A DNA stretch of 64,000 nt, taken from positions 93,874,654 to 93,938,653 of the forward strand of contig NC_133971.1 in NCBI RefSeq assembly GCF_031877795.1. The letters are read 5' to 3'. Below the pieces are notes generated by a model. The model saw only the letters and a list, made by a program, of their open reading frames with translations. It had not been told where the DNA came from and did not search any database. Positions 3,501 to 63,788 of the stretch are shown here, one piece after another; the first letter of the stretch is position 1, and every line of letters starts with the position of its first letter. The stretch comes from Strix aluco. Taxonomy: Eukaryota; Chordata; Aves; Strigiformes; Strigidae. The position numbers were made by a program, and so were the translations under genes.

Positions 3501-6500
3501 CTCCTAATCTGGTTCCAAATCGAATGTTTCGAACTGCATAAGGAGCCTGGCTCATGTTTTCAGCTCCACCACACAGAACAACTTCTGAGTCATTAAGGCA
3601 AATTTCCTGTTAACAGAAAAACAAAACAGATCTAGTATTTACTCTGCTGGTTTTGCAAGACAATAACAACCATTTTAGAACCTCCTCACCTACAAAGCCA
3701 CACAAAGAAAATGAATTCAAGCTTAGCCATGTGTATATTTATGAAGGCTTTACCCTTCTATTAAGATTGGGTCTGTCTCTTTCATTACGTGTTCCTTCTT
3801 CCTCCTTTCAGCAAGGAATGATTGTATCAGTGAGGGAGGAAGAGAATATGGGTGTACATGTATGACAGGACAGAGGGCAAAGCCATTAAGCATCTTCATG
3901 CTTGTGTGGTTAGGTTCACACATGGTTGAGCTTGGTTGGTTTTTTTTTAGCTCCTGATCTTCTGAACAGGAACACAAATTAAACCTCAAAGCTTGAAATG
4001 AGACCTTACGACTCTAAAAAAAATGGGAAATCATTTTAGAAAACATTAGTCAGGTAAGTTGCCAAAAGAAACCCCCAAAATGCACTATTTTGTCATTGGC
4101 AAAGCTCACAGAACCTAAAAGCCCCAATTCCTAAATTCTTGAAGTGATTCACTCAGTTGGACAGTTAAGGTTATTTATGTACTGGAATGGAAGCAGATTA
4201 AATTACATTGATATGCATTTGAGATGACTAGTTAATAATTAGTGTGACTGATTTGTAGTAATATGTGCTGAGATGCTTTCTATAATTACAAAAAACTTTG
4301 TGCACATTTAAGCAGCCCAGAACAGAAGCTGCAGCTTTGTTGTGTGCCAGAGAAATGTAGGAACATTAGCTGATGAAATGGCATCTTTGGAAAAGACCTC
4401 AAAACCACACTTCTGAGGTGAGTGGTCAAATTCTCCAACACATTTTTTCAGTGTAGGCCAACGTATGTGTAGCCTTTGCAGAAAGCAGAAAAAACAGCCA
4501 GACAGATATTACTGTAAATATGTAACCTTAACTCTACACTGTCTTCTACATTTTTTCCTCTAGAGGATCAGACCTAAAATAATTCTCTAGCCAATGGCAA
4601 CTTTTTCTTTAAAAAAAAAAAACAAAACACAACTATGTGGTTGCTGAAATATTCATAAAATACCCTTTAATTTTCTAAAGTCTAGACCACTGGTCTGTAT
4701 GAACAAATGAAATAAAAATCACTGTACCATCTTAGTGGTTTTGGCCAACCGCTCAAAGAGAAGTTGACTTTCTTCTATTTTAAAAGAAGTGACGCTATAA
4801 ATTATCTAACCCATAAGAGGGTTTGGATCTTTGAACAAAAACACACTTAAAAAGCACAGGTTGCTGCTTACATAGCCAGCTAGGTGAGAATATAAACAAT
4901 GATCAGAAGATGAAAGCCTCCTGTTGTGGTTCTGATGCCCAGTAATCACCGTTTGTACAGACAGGATCACAAAATGCAACTACTGCACAGCTGAGCTCTA
5001 TTTCACTGGGTAACACTCATTGCATTCCTTATATTAAACTCAAAATAGCTACAACGATGATTTTTAAAACCAGCCACAAAATATGGCACTGTGAAGGCTG
5101 ACTTCCTGCACATAACCATGCAGGACAACAGGAAGTCTCTACCAGTGGTAGCTAAAAATCCATGCTAAGACTCATCCCAAACATGAAATACACGTTTCTA
5201 CGCACATCTTTTCTCTCATGTTAACAGCCTGATAAAAGTTACAGCTAATACAGAAAGAAAGGAAAAAAAAAAAAAAAAAGTGCTTTGTACCTGACATCCA
5301 CTGGCAATAGACTGGAAACCAGAGCCGCAAAGTCTGTTGACAGTGAGGGCTGGAACTGGAACAGGAACTCCCACACGTAAACCAACATGTCTTGCAATAT
5401 AAATGGCATCTGAGGAGCTCTGCAGACATAACAAACAGGAGGTTTTGTTACACTCCAATTTCTTTGGAAAGTAAAAGTCTTGAAAATGGTGTAATTGCAT
5501 CACTGACAGAGGATAATTTATGTTCAACAGAAACCCTACTAGTCATAAGAAGCACTTTGATTCACTTCAAAGAACCACCATCCCGTATGATCAAAAAGGG
5601 CCAATGTCTTAATATGCATTTTAAAGAAACTCTGTGTCATAAAAGCTAGACATCAGGCCAAAAACGGTACTACAGATGTGAAGACTGAAGTCAGCATCTT
5701 AATAGTCTTCCCTTTTCCCTTAACTCTTATTTTCAAAGCAGCATACACACAACAGACTGACATAAGACCAGATCCTGACTGGTAAGCAGTAATTATTTCA
5801 AGCTAAATTAAAATTGCTCAGACTAACAGGGGAAGGCCCCCCAAAACCAGACAGTGTGGAAAATGCAGAGATGCCATTGCTGCTTCCTATCCACTTTGCA
5901 AAATTTTGTAACTCCGATGTTCTAGCTGGACACTGGCCTCTTCAAACAATAAAATCTCATTCCTCCAAACTTTTCAAAGATGGTTATATCAGACTTCTAT
6001 TTGAAAAGCAAAGTACTGCACACAGAGCAGTTTGCTTCAGAACCTGCTCCTTTAATAAACCAGGCTCCCACATGAGATGAAACAAAAATGATTAGGCTTC
6101 TGCATTTCAACTACTGAGTCAGCAGATGATGGCAAGCACAGGTACAGAATAAAAAACCGTAACAGCACCGCTTAAGGTTTGTAATGGATCTTTTCCAAAC
6201 AGAGAGAACACTTATGCTCTTGGGGATCACGCCCTAAGCTAGTATGTACGATAAAGACAAAGTTTTGTACACAACACTACTTGACAATGCAAGTTCAGAA
6301 AATACATATTAATCAAGACAATTCTGCTGAAGAAGGAGAGCTTAAAATGGTCATACATTCATAGTTATTTAAACTTAATCATATAATACTTAAGTATATA
6401 TGTATATATAATACTTATATACATATTATACACATATAATATTAAGTATTTAAAAGGAATCCAGGACTAAAAAAATCTACTGGGACGGGGAAGTATGATG

Positions 6501-9500
6501 CAAAGGAAAAGAAAAGTAATTTCAACATGAAAAGACTTAAGCTTCTCTTTTGGTTGAAAATCCTTAAGAAGGAATACTGCACATTTGTTCACTTATCATG
6601 AAAGTTCTTGGGTATTTGTTTCTTCTGCACCCTTGAAACACTCAATGCAAAATAAGACTGCCTACCTTTAATAAAGGTGAAGCCAGAATACAAAACAAAA
6701 CCAAACCAGAAATGCTCTTTTCTGTCTTGCCTAAAACAGATCCTAATCTAGGTATGCGGATACTGCAGTTTTGCAATGCTGGTGCCCTGCATGTAATAGC
6801 ACCTACATCACAAGAGCTCTGGAAAAGGTAAGATTGTCCAAATGTCTCTGCCAGTTGAGGCATGCATCCCTTCGTCTGAAAGTAAACTCATATTCACTCA
6901 AAAAAATTCTATCTAGAAACCTCAAGTGAAGTGGGCTCAAATCAGTTACAGTCTCCAGAAAGAAAGGGATTTATACAATCAGTGAAAACTCACCGATCAT
7001 TGAGTTCCACAGCTCAAGTCATTAAAACAGGAAAAAATATACCAGAGATTAGCAACTAACCCTTTAATGAATCCACAATTCTTTTCAGAAAATCAGTTTG
7101 TCCTAGGTTAAACTACTTTTGGTACTTAAAAAAGAAAGCTAAGCCTTGCCCCCAGTAGTATCACAAATCATGCAGGGTATGTCCCTTAAACACGAACAGG
7201 AAACTCTACACTATAAACACTACTTACCCATTTCATTTCCACCCCTTTCGTTTATTCTTGGCTGCAAAACAGAGGTAACTCACTATAAGACCACACTGAA
7301 GGAGACAACTGAAATCATCACTGACCAGTCAATTCTCCATGCCACCAACCTGCATGACACTGCCGACGATGACACTGTCAATGATCTCAGGAGAGACCTT
7401 GCCAGCAGCCAGCGCTGCTCGAGCGGCATGTTCTGTCAGATCGGTGGCTGTGAAGTCCTTCAGCAAACCTCCATAGGTCCCGAAAGGAGTTCGCTTTGCT
7501 GCAACAACGAATACACCTGCAACAGAAGCAAAAATTATCCAGATGTACAGAATCAAACAAACAGAAAGTCATCAAGTCAGCCTCAACTGCGTAACATCCT
7601 AAACTCACAAGGTTTGTAAATACAGGCAATGTGAACTCACGCAGTACACGATAAATGAGATATAGAAGCACTTTAGATAGAGAAGGTATGCAGAATTAAT
7701 GGTCAGAGAGAAAAGCTGGAAAGATTCCAGAAATACGTCTTTTCCACAAAGAGTTTTGAAATAAAAAAACCAAAACCCAACAGTTTTTTAGGATACCAGA
7801 CAGACAGAGAAGGCTGCCACATCACATCAGATATTAGTGCTAGCGCACTAGAAGTGTGAAAATAATATCCATGAAATCCCACAGTGGACACCTGTGAAAT
7901 AGTCAGATGAGGAACAGTTCTTCTAAAAAAACAAAGAGGCCATTACCTCATCCTAGAAAAATCAGCAGATTTTTGGCTTACACTCTGAAACAGTTTTCAC
8001 AAAGAATAAAAAAAAAAAAAGCAAAACCAAAAACTTTCTATATGTTTTAAGCTTTCACTTAAGAGGAAAACCATTCCTTAACCAAAATTATTTCCAGAAT
8101 TATATAAGACATCTAAACTGCATTAGCATCAGGCTTCTAGTTTCTGAGAAAGAAAATTCAGTTTTCAACTGACAGGAAAGTGTTTACAAGCGCGTGTGTA
8201 CAAATGCATCGGCCAGAAGGAGTCTATATGAATTTCAGCTTGGGAGAAGCTGTCTCTGAACACCTATCCAGTGCTCGTCTCTGCCTCTCCGTGCAGAAAC
8301 AAGTGGGAGGCAGTCTGTGAACTTTCCCCCAGTTAAACAACAGAGCTCACATAGCTCTTTCGTACAGCTGCCATGAGGCATCCACAGTTATTTTAGGTAA
8401 CACTGGAAGGATATATACAGATCTAAGAATGAAGGCAAATGAAAATGCCTGTTCTTTAAGCTACCTGTGAACACTTTTTGGGCCTTCTGTTAGAGGCCGT
8501 GTGATCCATATTCCTCGGCTGGTTTGTCAGAGAGAGGGTGCTCCTCTCTCTCTCTCATGTATTTGCATCCCGGGCTGCACCGTTTATAGAAAACGACCTT
8601 CCCAACTGGTGAAGGTCAAGCTTGCTCCACTGACAAGGAATTGAACACAATGTTGAGATCCGAAACAGGCAATAACTACGCTCAGAAGATCACCTGGGAA
8701 ATACCCTGAAGCAGACTAAGCAAGAATTACAGCTTCAAGGACAGGGATGATGAATGTAAAAAACAACATGGCTTTCAAAACCATGAAGATAGAGAAACAG
8801 ACTAACCCCCTCCCACCCTGATGCTGCCCATGGACTACTTTCTGGGCTACCCAGAAGACCTTAGAAGGAAGCCTCTGCTAAGCACACTACTGCTGCTCCC
8901 TTAAAATGTAGTGCTGACACAATAACTACCCAAAAACTGTGAGAAGCAAAACTTACTTCCTCAAAGGAATAAATAGCTGCTAACTATTATACATCCAGCA
9001 AGCTCACACTTCAGGTTTTTTAAGCGTAGAAGGAACAGTCATTAAAAATATATATCTCGAGAGGCCTCTGAATATTCAGGTCTGAAAAGTACCAAAGCTG
9101 GTGCTGTGGGGAAGGTCCTGTACCCAGGCTTGGAACAAACGTTCAGAACTGACCCCTTGTATACATGAAGTGTATGCTATATCCATCATCATTTTTCACT
9201 CTTCATTTAATCATCCTTCAGTTGATACCAGCGAGTAATTCAATTTAACCTGAAACAATTCCTAATCCACTGACTGAACCTTTTTTACTTTGGTTGTATC
9301 CATTTTTTCAAAAAAAGCTGAAAACTACTAACAGACACAAGGTGTGAAGCCCTAGAAGTTTTTTTAACAACGGTGAGGATGCTTTAGTTGATTTCTGCTT
9401 ATCAAAACCAGGCGTGTTCAATACAGTCACTGCAGAATTAGTCCCTGGACTAAGTATTCAAGTGACAGACTTCAATTTAGACTAGTAGTTTTCATTTAAC

Positions 9501-11658
9501 TATCCAAAATGTATTGTATTAACAATAACTTATGGAATGTTGTTTTAGTCTTCGTTAAATGTTAACAACACCTGCAAAAAAAAAGACCCTTCACTCTTTT
9601 AAGGGTGATCTCATGTTCCCTGCAGCAAAGCAGGCCTTGACACTCGTTTGCCACCACTCTTCCTGCCCCCTGATTCCCGTCCGTTTCCTCCAAAATTGTG
9701 CCAACAACAGCTGATTACAAGGCTTAGCTGCAGACTAGCTCACGGACCTGACCTAGCTAAAAGAACTTGTTCTCCTCCCTTTTGGCCAGGTTGTTGGCTT
9801 TCCACATTATTTGCTGAATCACATACACCCTATTGCCCTACAAACAAACAGTCTGGGGGCAAGGACAGAACTTTGCCCTTAAACTTTCCTGTCGCAATAA
9901 CGTTTCTCTTGTTCTTTCACTGAGGCTGCTCACTGCTGCCCACTCCCTCACAACAGCACTGCAGGGCCAAAGCTGTGGTATAGCTGGAGACTATCCCAGA
10001 GTCAGTGGAAAACGAGGGGCTAATTTTCATTTCGATCAGTTCTGTGACTGAGTTCACCTTCTGGCTGCTCAATAAAACATAATTCCAGACTAAGAGAGAA
10101 GGCTGGACTGAACCAGCAAGGGAAGAAGGTGAAGCACAACCTTTCCAAGCAGCGATGTCATGCTGAATTAAACTGACCACAGAGCCGCTCCCCTAAGGGT
10201 GTTATTACTCCACAGACTACTGAATTTTGCTAGATTGGAGAGACATCTACAAATGCTACTCCCTCCACAAAACTCTGGGAGGGGCAACAAGGGGTGTCTG
10301 AAGCCTGAGAAAGGACTCTGTAGACTTTGAGAGCTCTTCCTAAGTCTCCATTAATTAGTACCGTCCTACACTACCAGGGCAAGACTTCCAGAGTCTCTGC
10401 AATTTTCCAAGGTGATAAACACCAGATAAGAGCAGAATACTACCAAACGCATAGGGATCCAGAAAGTTTTGGGGCTGGAAAACGAAGGTCACTCTGAGTC
10501 CTTACCAAATACTCAAACCATCTTTTAAACTGGTTTTGGGGATCTGCAATTATAGGTCTGAAACATTCTCTCACCCTCCAACATTTCTGAAACGCAGCTG
10601 GTATGAAAATATTTGTTCATCAGATCCTATTTTGAAGGCCTAAAAAACCAATCATTAACCTCAAAAAAATTCAAGGAGCAAGAACAGTGCATGAAAAACA
10701 CTGTGGCAAGAGATGAGAGAAGATCCTGAAACAGGCAAAGCTGCTCTCTGCATTATCCAGCTCAGCAGAAAAATATGGAAATACTGCAACACTGACTAGA
10801 CACGCTTCTGGCACTGAAACCTCAAACCATGACTTACACGTATGTTATTTAAGTACACTCTGTTAAGTAGCAAAGCACTGTCAAATAGATAAAGAGCCCT
10901 ATTTCAACAAATTTCAGTTTTGTTCTTCAACAAGATCAGGTATTAAAGTGCTAATGATCTCATTTTTAAGAGACACAAAATTTAAGCCTCCTAAAGTACT
11001 TCTTTACATAAAACACTTGCAGGAACCGCACAGAGTTTGTCCTGCGCTCTTAGTGCTAACACAGGCAGGGGCTGGATATGACAAACTTCCAGTCACTGAC
11101 ACTTCAAGTGTCACTTCTAGTCACCGCACACACCCATGGCTAGTTTTTGGACATATATACGCACCTTTCGCTATAGGTTTGTTTGCACCATAAGCACGGC
11201 TGGAAGACAGACACTATTATTGTTTCATAAAACAGTGCTCAGAACAGAGAAGATTGCGACCGACACCGCGTGCCCCTTCTCCACCCTCTGCACCTTCACG
11301 CAGATCAGTGCTTTTTTTGAAAAGCCGCGGGTTTTTTCAGCTGTTTACCGCGCGGATGCTGACAACGGCACGGACCAGAGAGCGGGGAGGAAAAACCCCC
11401 CCGGAGAAAGAGGAACGGCTTCACAGGCTCCACTGCGGATTTTCCGACGGGTATCACGCGCTCCCAGCCGGGACAAGGGCCGCAGGGCCGCGCACCTTCC
11501 CCTCAGACCCGGCCCAGCCTCCCCGCCCGCACGGAGCCGCCCTGCTCCCCCTCAGGGACCGGCGGGCACACCACGCCCCGCGGAGGGGCCCCGCTGCCCC
11601 TCACACGGCGCCCGCCCCGCCGCGGGCTGACAGAGGCCTCACCCCGCAGGAGCGCCAT
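334..11658 (-). CDS. ACAA2: ACAA2, mitochondrial 3-ketoacyl-CoA thiolase, exons 1-6 (5' part of gene)
   Basis: Acetyl-CoA acyltransferase 2 carries out the last, thiolytic step of mitochondrial fatty-acid beta-oxidation, splitting 3-ketoacyl-CoA with CoA to give acetyl-CoA. Six minus-strand exons join without a frame break (16+167+129+117+148+176 nt = 251 codons) at 11643-11658, 7350-7516, 5291-5419, 3490-3606, 1960-2107 and 334-509. The translation follows mammalian ACAA2 almost without gaps, starting MALLRG and holding the thiolase nucleophile in NRLCGSGFQS at residue 92. The usual protein has 397 residues, so about 146 C-terminal residues, including the His and second Cys active-site motifs, lie beyond the left edge. 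The enzyme uses an uncleaved N-terminal mitochondrial signal. The start lies in a CpG island with a guide-RNA gene on the other strand. All introns seen are GT-AG. Confidence 0.97.
510..1959 (-). other. ACAA2: ACAA2 intron 5
   Basis: AT-rich intron of about 1.45 kb between exons 5 and 6. I see short T and A runs only, and no recognisable repeat or extra exon. Confidence 0.85.
1960..2107 (-). CDS. ACAA2: ACAA2 coding exon 5
   Basis: The 148-bp exon encodes residues 144-192 plus the first base of residue 193, with LWEGLTDTHVKIPMAVTAEN and the ITREDCDRYA segment typical of the thiolase loop domain. The acceptor is ccatgcag and the donor GTTAGT. Phase 0 start and phase 1 end fit exons 4 and 6. 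Confidence 0.95.
2108..3489 (-). other. ACAA2: ACAA2 intron 4
   Basis: Intron of about 1.4 kb. Small open frames on both strands here resemble no known protein. Nothing else was seen. Confidence 0.85.
3490..3606 (-). CDS. ACAA2: ACAA2 coding exon 4
   Basis: The 117-bp exon encodes 39 residues (105-143) containing EVVLCGGAENMSQAPY, the conserved thiolase segment with the GGxExMS motif near the CoA pocket. The acceptor is gttaacag and the donor is GTCTAG, a fair rather than strong match. Both ends fall on codon boundaries. Confidence 0.95.
3607..5290 (-). other. ACAA2: ACAA2 intron 3
   Basis: Intron of about 1.7 kb, AT-rich, ending (in transcript direction, near exon 3) beside an A17 run on the plus strand at 5263-5279. 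No repeat family was recognised. Confidence 0.85.
5291..5419 (-). CDS. ACAA2: ACAA2 coding exon 3 (catalytic Cys92)
   Basis: The 129-bp exon encodes residues 62-104 and contains NRLCGSGFQS, the thiolase active-site motif whose Cys (residue 92) is acylated during catalysis. It starts after ctgcag and ends CAG before GTACAAAG. Where mammals have IPKETPAL the bird reads VPVPVPAL, a small Pro-Val repeat from a repeated GTTCC-type codon pair on a surface loop. The acceptor's upstream neighbour and the donor both fit the consensus. Confidence 0.96.
5420..7349 (-). other. ACAA2: ACAA2 intron 2
   Basis: Intron of about 1.9 kb. It holds an AT-rich, partly palindromic stretch at 6375-6452, listed separately. 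Nothing else was recognised. Confidence 0.85.
6375..6452. repeat. AT-rich (TA)n tract with palindromes
   Basis: Almost pure A/T sequence with repeated TATATA and ATAC units. It contains a perfect 12-bp palindrome, ATACTTAAGTAT, at 6386-6397, and 8-bp inverted arms at 6385-6392 and 6443-6450. It is a low-complexity or cruciform-prone intronic repeat. Confidence 0.75.
7350..7516 (-). CDS. ACAA2: ACAA2 coding exon 2
   Basis: This exon encodes residues 6-61, including VFVVAAKRTPFG and the segment LLKDFTATDL of the thiolase N-terminal domain. It is bounded by the acceptor ttgcag and by CAG followed by the donor GTTGGT. The 167 bp begin in phase 1, completing the Gly codon from exon 1, and end on a codon boundary. 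An open frame on the opposite strand covers this exon and is only its shadow. Confidence 0.96.
7517..11642 (-). other. ACAA2: ACAA2 intron 1
   Basis: First intron, about 4.1 kb. The part next to exon 1 (from about 11250) is GC-rich and belongs to the CpG island; the rest is AT-rich. A short CT run lies near 8545. No transposon or further exon was recognised. Open frames at 11136-11808 are a by-product of high GC content. Confidence 0.85.
11643..11658 (-). CDS. ACAA2: ACAA2 coding exon 1 (start codon)
   Basis: The minus strand reads ATG GCG CTC CTG CGG G followed by the donor GTGAGG. This gives MALLR plus the first base of Gly6, matching the conserved N-terminus of the enzyme. The exon is too short to appear as an open frame and was placed from that peptide and from the phase of exon 2. 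The start has G at -3 and +4 (strong Kozak context). The 5' UTR continues to the right inside the CpG island; the transcription start cannot be fixed from sequence. Confidence 0.93.
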
Positions 11659-11762
11659 GGCCGCGCCGCTCCCCCTCAGCCGCGCCTCACCCGCCGCACA
11701 TTCGCCACGCTGCGGGCGGAGGGGGCGGGCACACCCAGACAGCGCTTTTTAATCCATTTAAA

Positions 11763-11783
11763 TTTTTTTTTTTTTTTTTTTTT
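11763..11783. repeat. T21 homopolymer in the promoter region
   Basis: Uninterrupted run of 21 T on the plus strand (A21 on the ACAA2 strand), between the ACAA2 start codon and the guide RNA. It could be a nucleosome-excluding dA:dT tract or a retroposon remnant; the sequence alone does not decide. Confidence 0.85.
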
Positions 11784-11997
11784 CCCACTTCACTTCTACT
11801 TGATTTGATTTGTCCCTCTTCGCCATCCCCCCACCCCTCGCCTGCAAAGGGCGGCGCGGGCTTTGGCGAATCGGCGAGCGGGCGGCGCGGCGTTGCCGTA
11901 GCAATGGCGGCCCCGGGCGGCGGCGGTAGGCCCCGGGCGGCGGCGGCGGGCCAAGCGGGCCCGCTGCGGCCTCTGCCCGTCTCCGGGGCCTCCTCGC

Positions 11998-12086
11998 CGC
12001 GGTCCATGATGAGTAGCCACTGCGCAAGCCGAGTTCCGCGGGAGCGGTGAGGACCCTTGCGCCGGGTAAAGCACCTGAGACCCGCG
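11998..12086 (+). ncRNA. SCARNA17: C/D-box guide RNA for U4 snRNA C8, scaRNA17/U91-like
   Basis: The elements occur in order: 5' terminal stem 11998-12004, C box ATGATGA 12006-12012, guide GCCACTGCGCAA 12016-12027, D' box CCGA 12029-12032 (one change from CTGA), C'-like TGAGGAC 12048-12054, D box CTGA 12075-12078, and 3' stem 12079-12086 pairing with the 5' stem through one bulge. The guide is perfectly complementary to U4 snRNA nucleotides 5-16. The base opposite U4 C8 is exactly the fifth upstream of D', the rule for box C/D 2'-O-methylation. Human scaRNA17 (U91) guides U4 Cm8 and lies just upstream of ACAA2 on the opposite strand, as here. The second guide expected for U12 G22 is not visible. 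The gene was identified from sequence and synteny without a search. Confidence 0.78.
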
Positions 12087-13442
12087 AGCGGCGGCCCGGG
12101 GAGGCCTGAGGGCAGCTCCCCTCCCTCACGACGAGAAGTCACGCCCCCCCTTCCACACCCCCCCACCCGCTCCGGACGCCGCCTCGGGGGTTTTAATGGC
12201 GGTTTGTTGGCCCAGCGCTGCCCCCGATTCCAAGTTTCGGCGTTTCTGGGCTTGGATGAAGAGTAGGACTTGCCTCGTGGTCTTCTTCATGTCGCCTCTC
12301 CCTTGCAACCTCCCAGTTGGGCGTAGGGGAGGCATAGAAAGAGCCCGTCACAGTTCTGGTGGTTGAAAATTCATGTTGAAGTATGATTTATGTGCATAAA
12401 AACTTTAGGGGAACCGTTCAGACGGTCTGGCAGAAGGTGGGAGGATCAGGACAGTAATAAAAAAATAAAAATTTTTGTGTCCAGATAAAAGTTGCCATAT
12501 GTCTTCATTGATGCAGTCTAGGTTTTATAACTTTTATAGAAGAAAAAAATGTTTTCCGGCGAGCAATCCCATTTTTGATTAAAAAAAAATAAAATCAACT
12601 GCTTTCCCTATGTAATTCCAATGATTTCATGAATCTAGAGATCAGTGAATGTACAGCAATATGCAACTTTGTCTTTAAAAAAAAGCAGAGGGTTTTACTG
12701 TATTTTCTTTCTCTGCCACTGACTAAATCTTATTTAAGCCCATGCACAAGGGCTGGCACCGCATCCCGTCCTCTCCATTCATTTGCAACCGCCTTCATGG
12801 ACGTAAGGTACCCCACGCGGTTTCTAATTAGCTCACAATATTTAAGCACCTCTGAAATTAAGTTATAACTTCTAAAACTTTAAAATTCTTAAGTAAAAGC
12901 TTTGAGACTGTTCATTTGTGTTTGCAAAGTCCTTTTTAATTTTAAAATAGAAATGTTTCCAATACATAGAAGTAAACATTGAAAGGTTTATTTTTTAACA
13001 TCCCCATTTTTGACCAAAAGTCACAATTTCTTCAAAAGTGTTTATTTCACAATTTTTTTATCCACAGCTGAATATTACAGTGACTATTACAAGCATTCTC
13101 CTAAAAAGGTGTAGTTTACAGATTTGTTCAAAATGGAAAAATACTTTATAAGCAGTAGTATTTCATCTTGAGTATTCACTCCTGTCTATCATTCAGCTTC
13201 TTTGAGAGCATACATAGCTTCTGCTTGTTAACGTAATGAGACTTCACAAAACCCTCAAACAAACAGACGTTGCACTGTAGTAGCACATTTTTTGATAATT
13301 TGGTGTTTCATCTAATTTCAACTTAATTTGAAAGTTTTTGTTAACTGGCATTTACATTTTGAAATCAATTGTGTACTCGTTGGAGAATATGTCCTCCGGA
13401 TTGTTTTGCTTAACATCTACATTGCTAGAACTTCTTCCAGGC

Positions 13443-17388: not shown

Positions 17389-63788
<46,400 letters not shown>

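Follow-up and report, generated by a model that had tools for sequence, protein, structure and literature searches.

A predicted U4 C8 guide RNA resembling the mgU4-8 domain of scaRNA17 lies head to head with ACAA2

The ACAA2 neighbourhood and its box C/D domain

The window, by which we mean the whole 64-kb stretch of DNA that was analysed, carries exons 1 and 2 of ACAA2 on its minus strand. The coding part of exon 1 (11643-11658) reads MALLR plus one base and is followed by a GT donor, while exon 2 (7350-7516), delimited by AG and GT splice sites and by its reading frame, encodes an N-terminal part of the thiolase. The best PDB match of exon 2 is mitochondrial 3-ketoacyl-CoA thiolase (4c2j, E = 3e-25), and the exon also matches PF00108, as does a further frame at 5216-5539. 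At the right end of the window, a minus-strand frame with IQ motifs matches class V myosins (myosin-5A, E = 7.8e-27) and fits MYO5B by synteny, MYO5B being the paralog that we take it to represent. In human, ACAA2 and SCARNA17 stand in one table row, beside the row of MYO5B, in the accessible part of PMC2965662. The ACAA2 start codon lies at 11658, and a guide RNA begins 340 bases upstream of it in divergent (head-to-head) orientation. The earlier note had placed this RNA beside ACAA2 and human scaRNA17/U91 on the strand opposite to that gene. Here, the two minus-strand exons bear out the opposite orientation, which we assume for human SCARNA17 as well.

The guide RNA occupies 11998-12086 (+) as a complete, U4-directed box C/D domain of 89 nt, which its boxes and its match to the Rfam family RF00283 mark as very probably the mgU4-8 (U91-like) domain of a scaRNA17 ortholog. 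The 5' strand of the terminal stem (CGCGGTC, 11998-12004), whose inner GGTC pairs with GACC, is followed by the C box ATGATGA (12006-12012) and by a 12-nt guide, GCCACTGCGCAA (12016-12027), which is the reverse complement of U4 5-16 and sets G12024 opposite C8. A single spacer base separates the guide from the D' box CCGA (12029-12032), one base off CTGA. Then come the C'-like box GTGAGGA (12047-12053), one base off RTGATGA, the D box CTGA (12075-12078) and the 3' strand of the terminal stem, GACCCGCG (12079-12086), in which C12083 is bulged; read by eye, the stem has 7 bp with this bulge. Hence, C, D', C' and D follow one another within a closing stem in the order expected of a box C/D guide RNA, D' and C' each being one base off. 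The plus-strand elements listed in the earlier note are thus all present where it put them and in the right order within 89 nt; its D' and C' boxes are correctly positioned, and neither has the consensus sequence. Minimum-energy folds also place a small hairpin (CCGC-GGGA-GCGG, 12036-12047) between D' and C', with a GNRA-type loop and adjoining the C' box.

GC content at the locus is 0.67-0.72, with a peak of 0.72. Scans for promoter elements gave no clear support for an independent capped Pol II transcript: neither an octamer nor a 3' box was found near the locus, and STAF-like matches with two mismatches numbered 16 against 10.1 expected, 3 of 100 shuffles giving as many. Two of these 16 lie near the locus, at 11826 (+) and at 11999 (-), the latter over the C box. 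Between ACAA2 and the guide RNA, the promoter contains a run of 21 T (11763-11783).

Guide register and likeness to human scaRNA17

Using what we take to be the 5'-end sequence of U4, we found that the guide forms 12 pairs in register and that the base opposite C8 is the fifth nucleotide upstream of D', the target position of a box C/D guide. The full complementarity to U4 5-16 reported before, with C8 five nucleotides from D', is therefore confirmed. On both strands of the window, this is the sole site with an RTGATGA box and at least 9 Watson-Crick pairs to U4 in the C8 register. The stability of the computed fold is unremarkable (z = 0.67 for 111 nt and z = -0.92 for 89 nt). We noticed that a part of the guide, GCGCAAG (12022-12028), is complementary to CTTGCGC (12056-12062), which resembles U4 and lies in the RNA's 3' half; because these two pair, the computed fold hides the guide.

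Then, we compared the domain with the human mgU4-8 pieces printed in the accessible parts of the literature. First, the 5' half aligned with 29 of 36 columns identical, a result that none of 1000 simulations equalled, and the printed 23-nt 3' piece aligned at chance (961 of 1000 simulations did as well); a U4 C8 guide is thus accompanied by homology to human in the 5' half only. Second, the C box, the guide core CCACTGCGCAA, the U4 C8 register, GAGTT at and after the D' start, the D box, the terminal stem and the place beside ACAA2 are all shared with human. In the stem, GGCC/GGCC of the human pieces corresponds to GGTC/GACC here; since this C-G to U-A change occurs on both sides, the stem is kept through compensation. 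Third, the guide duplex is one pair longer than in human (12 versus 11), D' is CCGA instead of CTGA, and the human 3' element that is said to pair with SNORD16, which lies within the printed reverse primer and which we take to read CTGAGAACAG, is absent. This human 3' loop has no counterpart; the closest stretch, at two mismatches, falls on the D box and its stem. The pairing with SNORD16 is described in the accessible part of PMC5612246, which also presents human scaRNA17 as an independent Pol II gene that yields a stable, nucleolus-enriched mgU4-8 fragment. The guide core CTGCGCAA, unchanged here, is also said to contact SNORD94 (PMC6124571, accessible part).

The covariance model RF00283 matched the domain over its full length (model 1-83 of 83) with 28.6 bits, at E = 0.024 in the 64-kb window and E = 0.00041 when the search was limited to 1.1 kb; the alignment display is without the model's middle. 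When 4227 families were run on the whole window, it was the better of two matches with E up to 1. The score is lower than the gathering score of 40 bits, and cmscan at gathering thresholds returned 0 matches in 64 kb: a scan based on the curated cut-off misses the guide RNA because 28.6 bits falls below it. Checking the scaRNA17/U91 model, as proposed earlier, thus gave an end-to-end match below the gathering score, and the gene can be called "unannotated" only insofar as a scan at the gathering threshold does not report it. More generally, diverged scaRNAs that lie in GC-rich promoters can escape notice when a curated score limit is applied. Rfam 15 gives RF00283 the label SCARNA18; what is shown of its consensus nevertheless differs by few letters from the primers and probe printed for human scaRNA17 mgU4-8 in the accessible parts of PMC6124571 and PMC7648615. 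Other weak Rfam matches around the locus, all below their own cut-offs, were dismissed as noise: besides RF00283, the 1.1-kb search gave eight, another scan three and the window scan CLRN1-AS1.

The U12-22 domain

Human scaRNA17 is listed as a guide for both U4 Cm8 and U12 Gm22 in the accessible part of PMC7960923. Its 5' mgU12-22 domain, which carries the U12 G22 guide and is not mentioned in the earlier note, has no recognisable equivalent upstream of the domain described here, be it by near-exact match, by register scan or by local alignment. The 46 D-like boxes in 11000-12005 (+) gave a longest in-register duplex of 6 pairs, G-U allowed, whereas a printed piece of the human 5' domain, scanned as positive control, gave 12; the U12 sequence used is the one that we assume to be correct. 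Two pieces of the human 5' region also aligned at chance (858 and 982 of 1000 simulations did as well). Outside the guide, this negative carries little weight, as human mgU4-8 itself has a 3' piece that fails to align above chance. A conserved guide would be expected were the U12 site still guided from here. The absence of the domain may reflect loss, relocation or divergence. Downstream, at 12713 (+), lies the site with a D-like box that pairs best in register on the plus strand around the locus. It was rejected as a U12 site: it needs a G-U at the target and does not surpass others elsewhere in the window.

These observations raise the possibility, which we put forward tentatively and consider less probable than its opposite, that scaRNA17 of this lineage is a single-domain U4 C8 guide, its U12 G22 domain having been lost or moved. 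U12 Gm22 would then be missing or guided from elsewhere, and the SNORD16-directed role would not exist here. In line with such a reading, none of the 83 chicken guide RNAs in Table 1, in the accessible part of PMC2653536, is a C/D guide for U12, although U12 was one of the survey's targets; a gap in the old chicken assembly would also explain this. The single-domain reading is nonetheless the part worth following: in other birds, crocodilians and turtles, whether or not a TATTTTCCTTA-like guide stands upstream would date a loss. The constraint on scaRNA17 can also be compared directly, the U4 guide being constrained while the human U12 guide and the SNORD16-pairing element are not recognisable here.

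A probable scaRNA17 ortholog and its alternatives

In our view, 11998-12086 very likely represents the mgU4-8 (U91) domain of an orthologous scaRNA17 gene and would guide U4 Cm8. The full-length RF00283 match, the exact register, the 29/36 identity, the compensatory stem change, the ACAA2 and myosin neighbours and the 0/45 background given below all argue for it. The sub-threshold score, the off-consensus D' and C', the 3' piece at chance, the guide paired in the computed fold and the lack of an octamer or 3' box count against it. Judging from its sequence, the gene is real and probably functional. Transcription would run along the plus strand from a CpG-rich promoter possibly shared with ACAA2, a common CpG-island promoter being our guess. 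The RNA would then form C/D and C'/D' motifs; in this class of RNA, such motifs are bound by the core C/D proteins and fibrillarin. The 12-nt guide, in the register read from its sequence, would pair with U4 5-16, and fibrillarin would methylate the ribose of C8, five nucleotides from D'. The locus would thus provide a predicted U4 C8 methylation guide at the human-equivalent place in an apparent bird.

According to the accessible part of PMC2653536, a chicken survey predicts two U4-C8 guides, GGgCD77 (RFWD2 intron 11) and GGgCD3 (RPL23A intron 3). ACAA2 is not mentioned in that text and, because its Table 1 places no U4-C8 guide there, the gene described here is absent from the chicken list. 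As listed, these two share the predicted U4 C8 target with our RNA and differ in their intronic loci elsewhere; birds may well have a second, intronic U4-C8 guide. Together with the off-consensus D' and C' and the unrecognisable 5' domain, the two chicken guides would suit a decaying or silent relic of scaRNA17, whose boxes survive although it gives no stable RNA, U4 C8 being guided from another locus. We find this improbable, given the intact main C and D boxes, the guide duplex that exceeds the human one (12 versus 11 pairs) and the compensatory change in the stem. As for earlier descriptions, none of the papers listed in our literature searches describes a bird scaRNA17 gene at ACAA2; vertebrate mgU12-22/U4-8 alignments cited in the accessible part of PMC4041459 may include a bird.

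It is more improbable still that a U4-C8 guide arrived here independently, as a mobile C/D copy, instead of descending from scaRNA17. The lack of a recognised upstream U12-22 domain would fit such an arrival; however, the neighbour is the same as in human (the human strand being assumed), and identity extends beyond the boxes and the guide, as in GAGTT after the D' start.

Finally, we asked how often such an arrangement arises by chance. In 400 first-order simulated windows with the same dinucleotide make-up (51.2 Mb of strand), there was one site with at least 9 pairs and none with 11, and 20,000 simulations of a CpG-rich 1 kb gave no site with at least 9 pairs. The C box followed by the 11-nt guide core at a spacing of 3-7 occurred in 42 stretches of a prokaryote genome collection (257 billion bases) and in 3 of a viral collection; a phage search gave no match and was uninformative. 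Not one of the 45 matches combined these elements with the remaining three, namely a D'-like box (3 of 4 letters), a suitably spaced D box and a 4-pair stem. The window site has all three. Thus, despite the GC of 0.67-0.72 and an RF00283 score under the gathering cut-off, which would suit a chance resemblance in a GC-rich promoter, the simulations, the collection background and the location beside ACAA2 make a chance origin of the box and guide arrangement negligible, and we rejected it.

Elsewhere in the window, 11 bases at 22190 (+) match the complement of the 5' end of U4, without a C box in register. The frames 21673-22235 and 39278-40054 (-), of which the former gave no Pfam match over 21673-22206, presumably represent ends resembling CR1 LINE reverse transcriptase.
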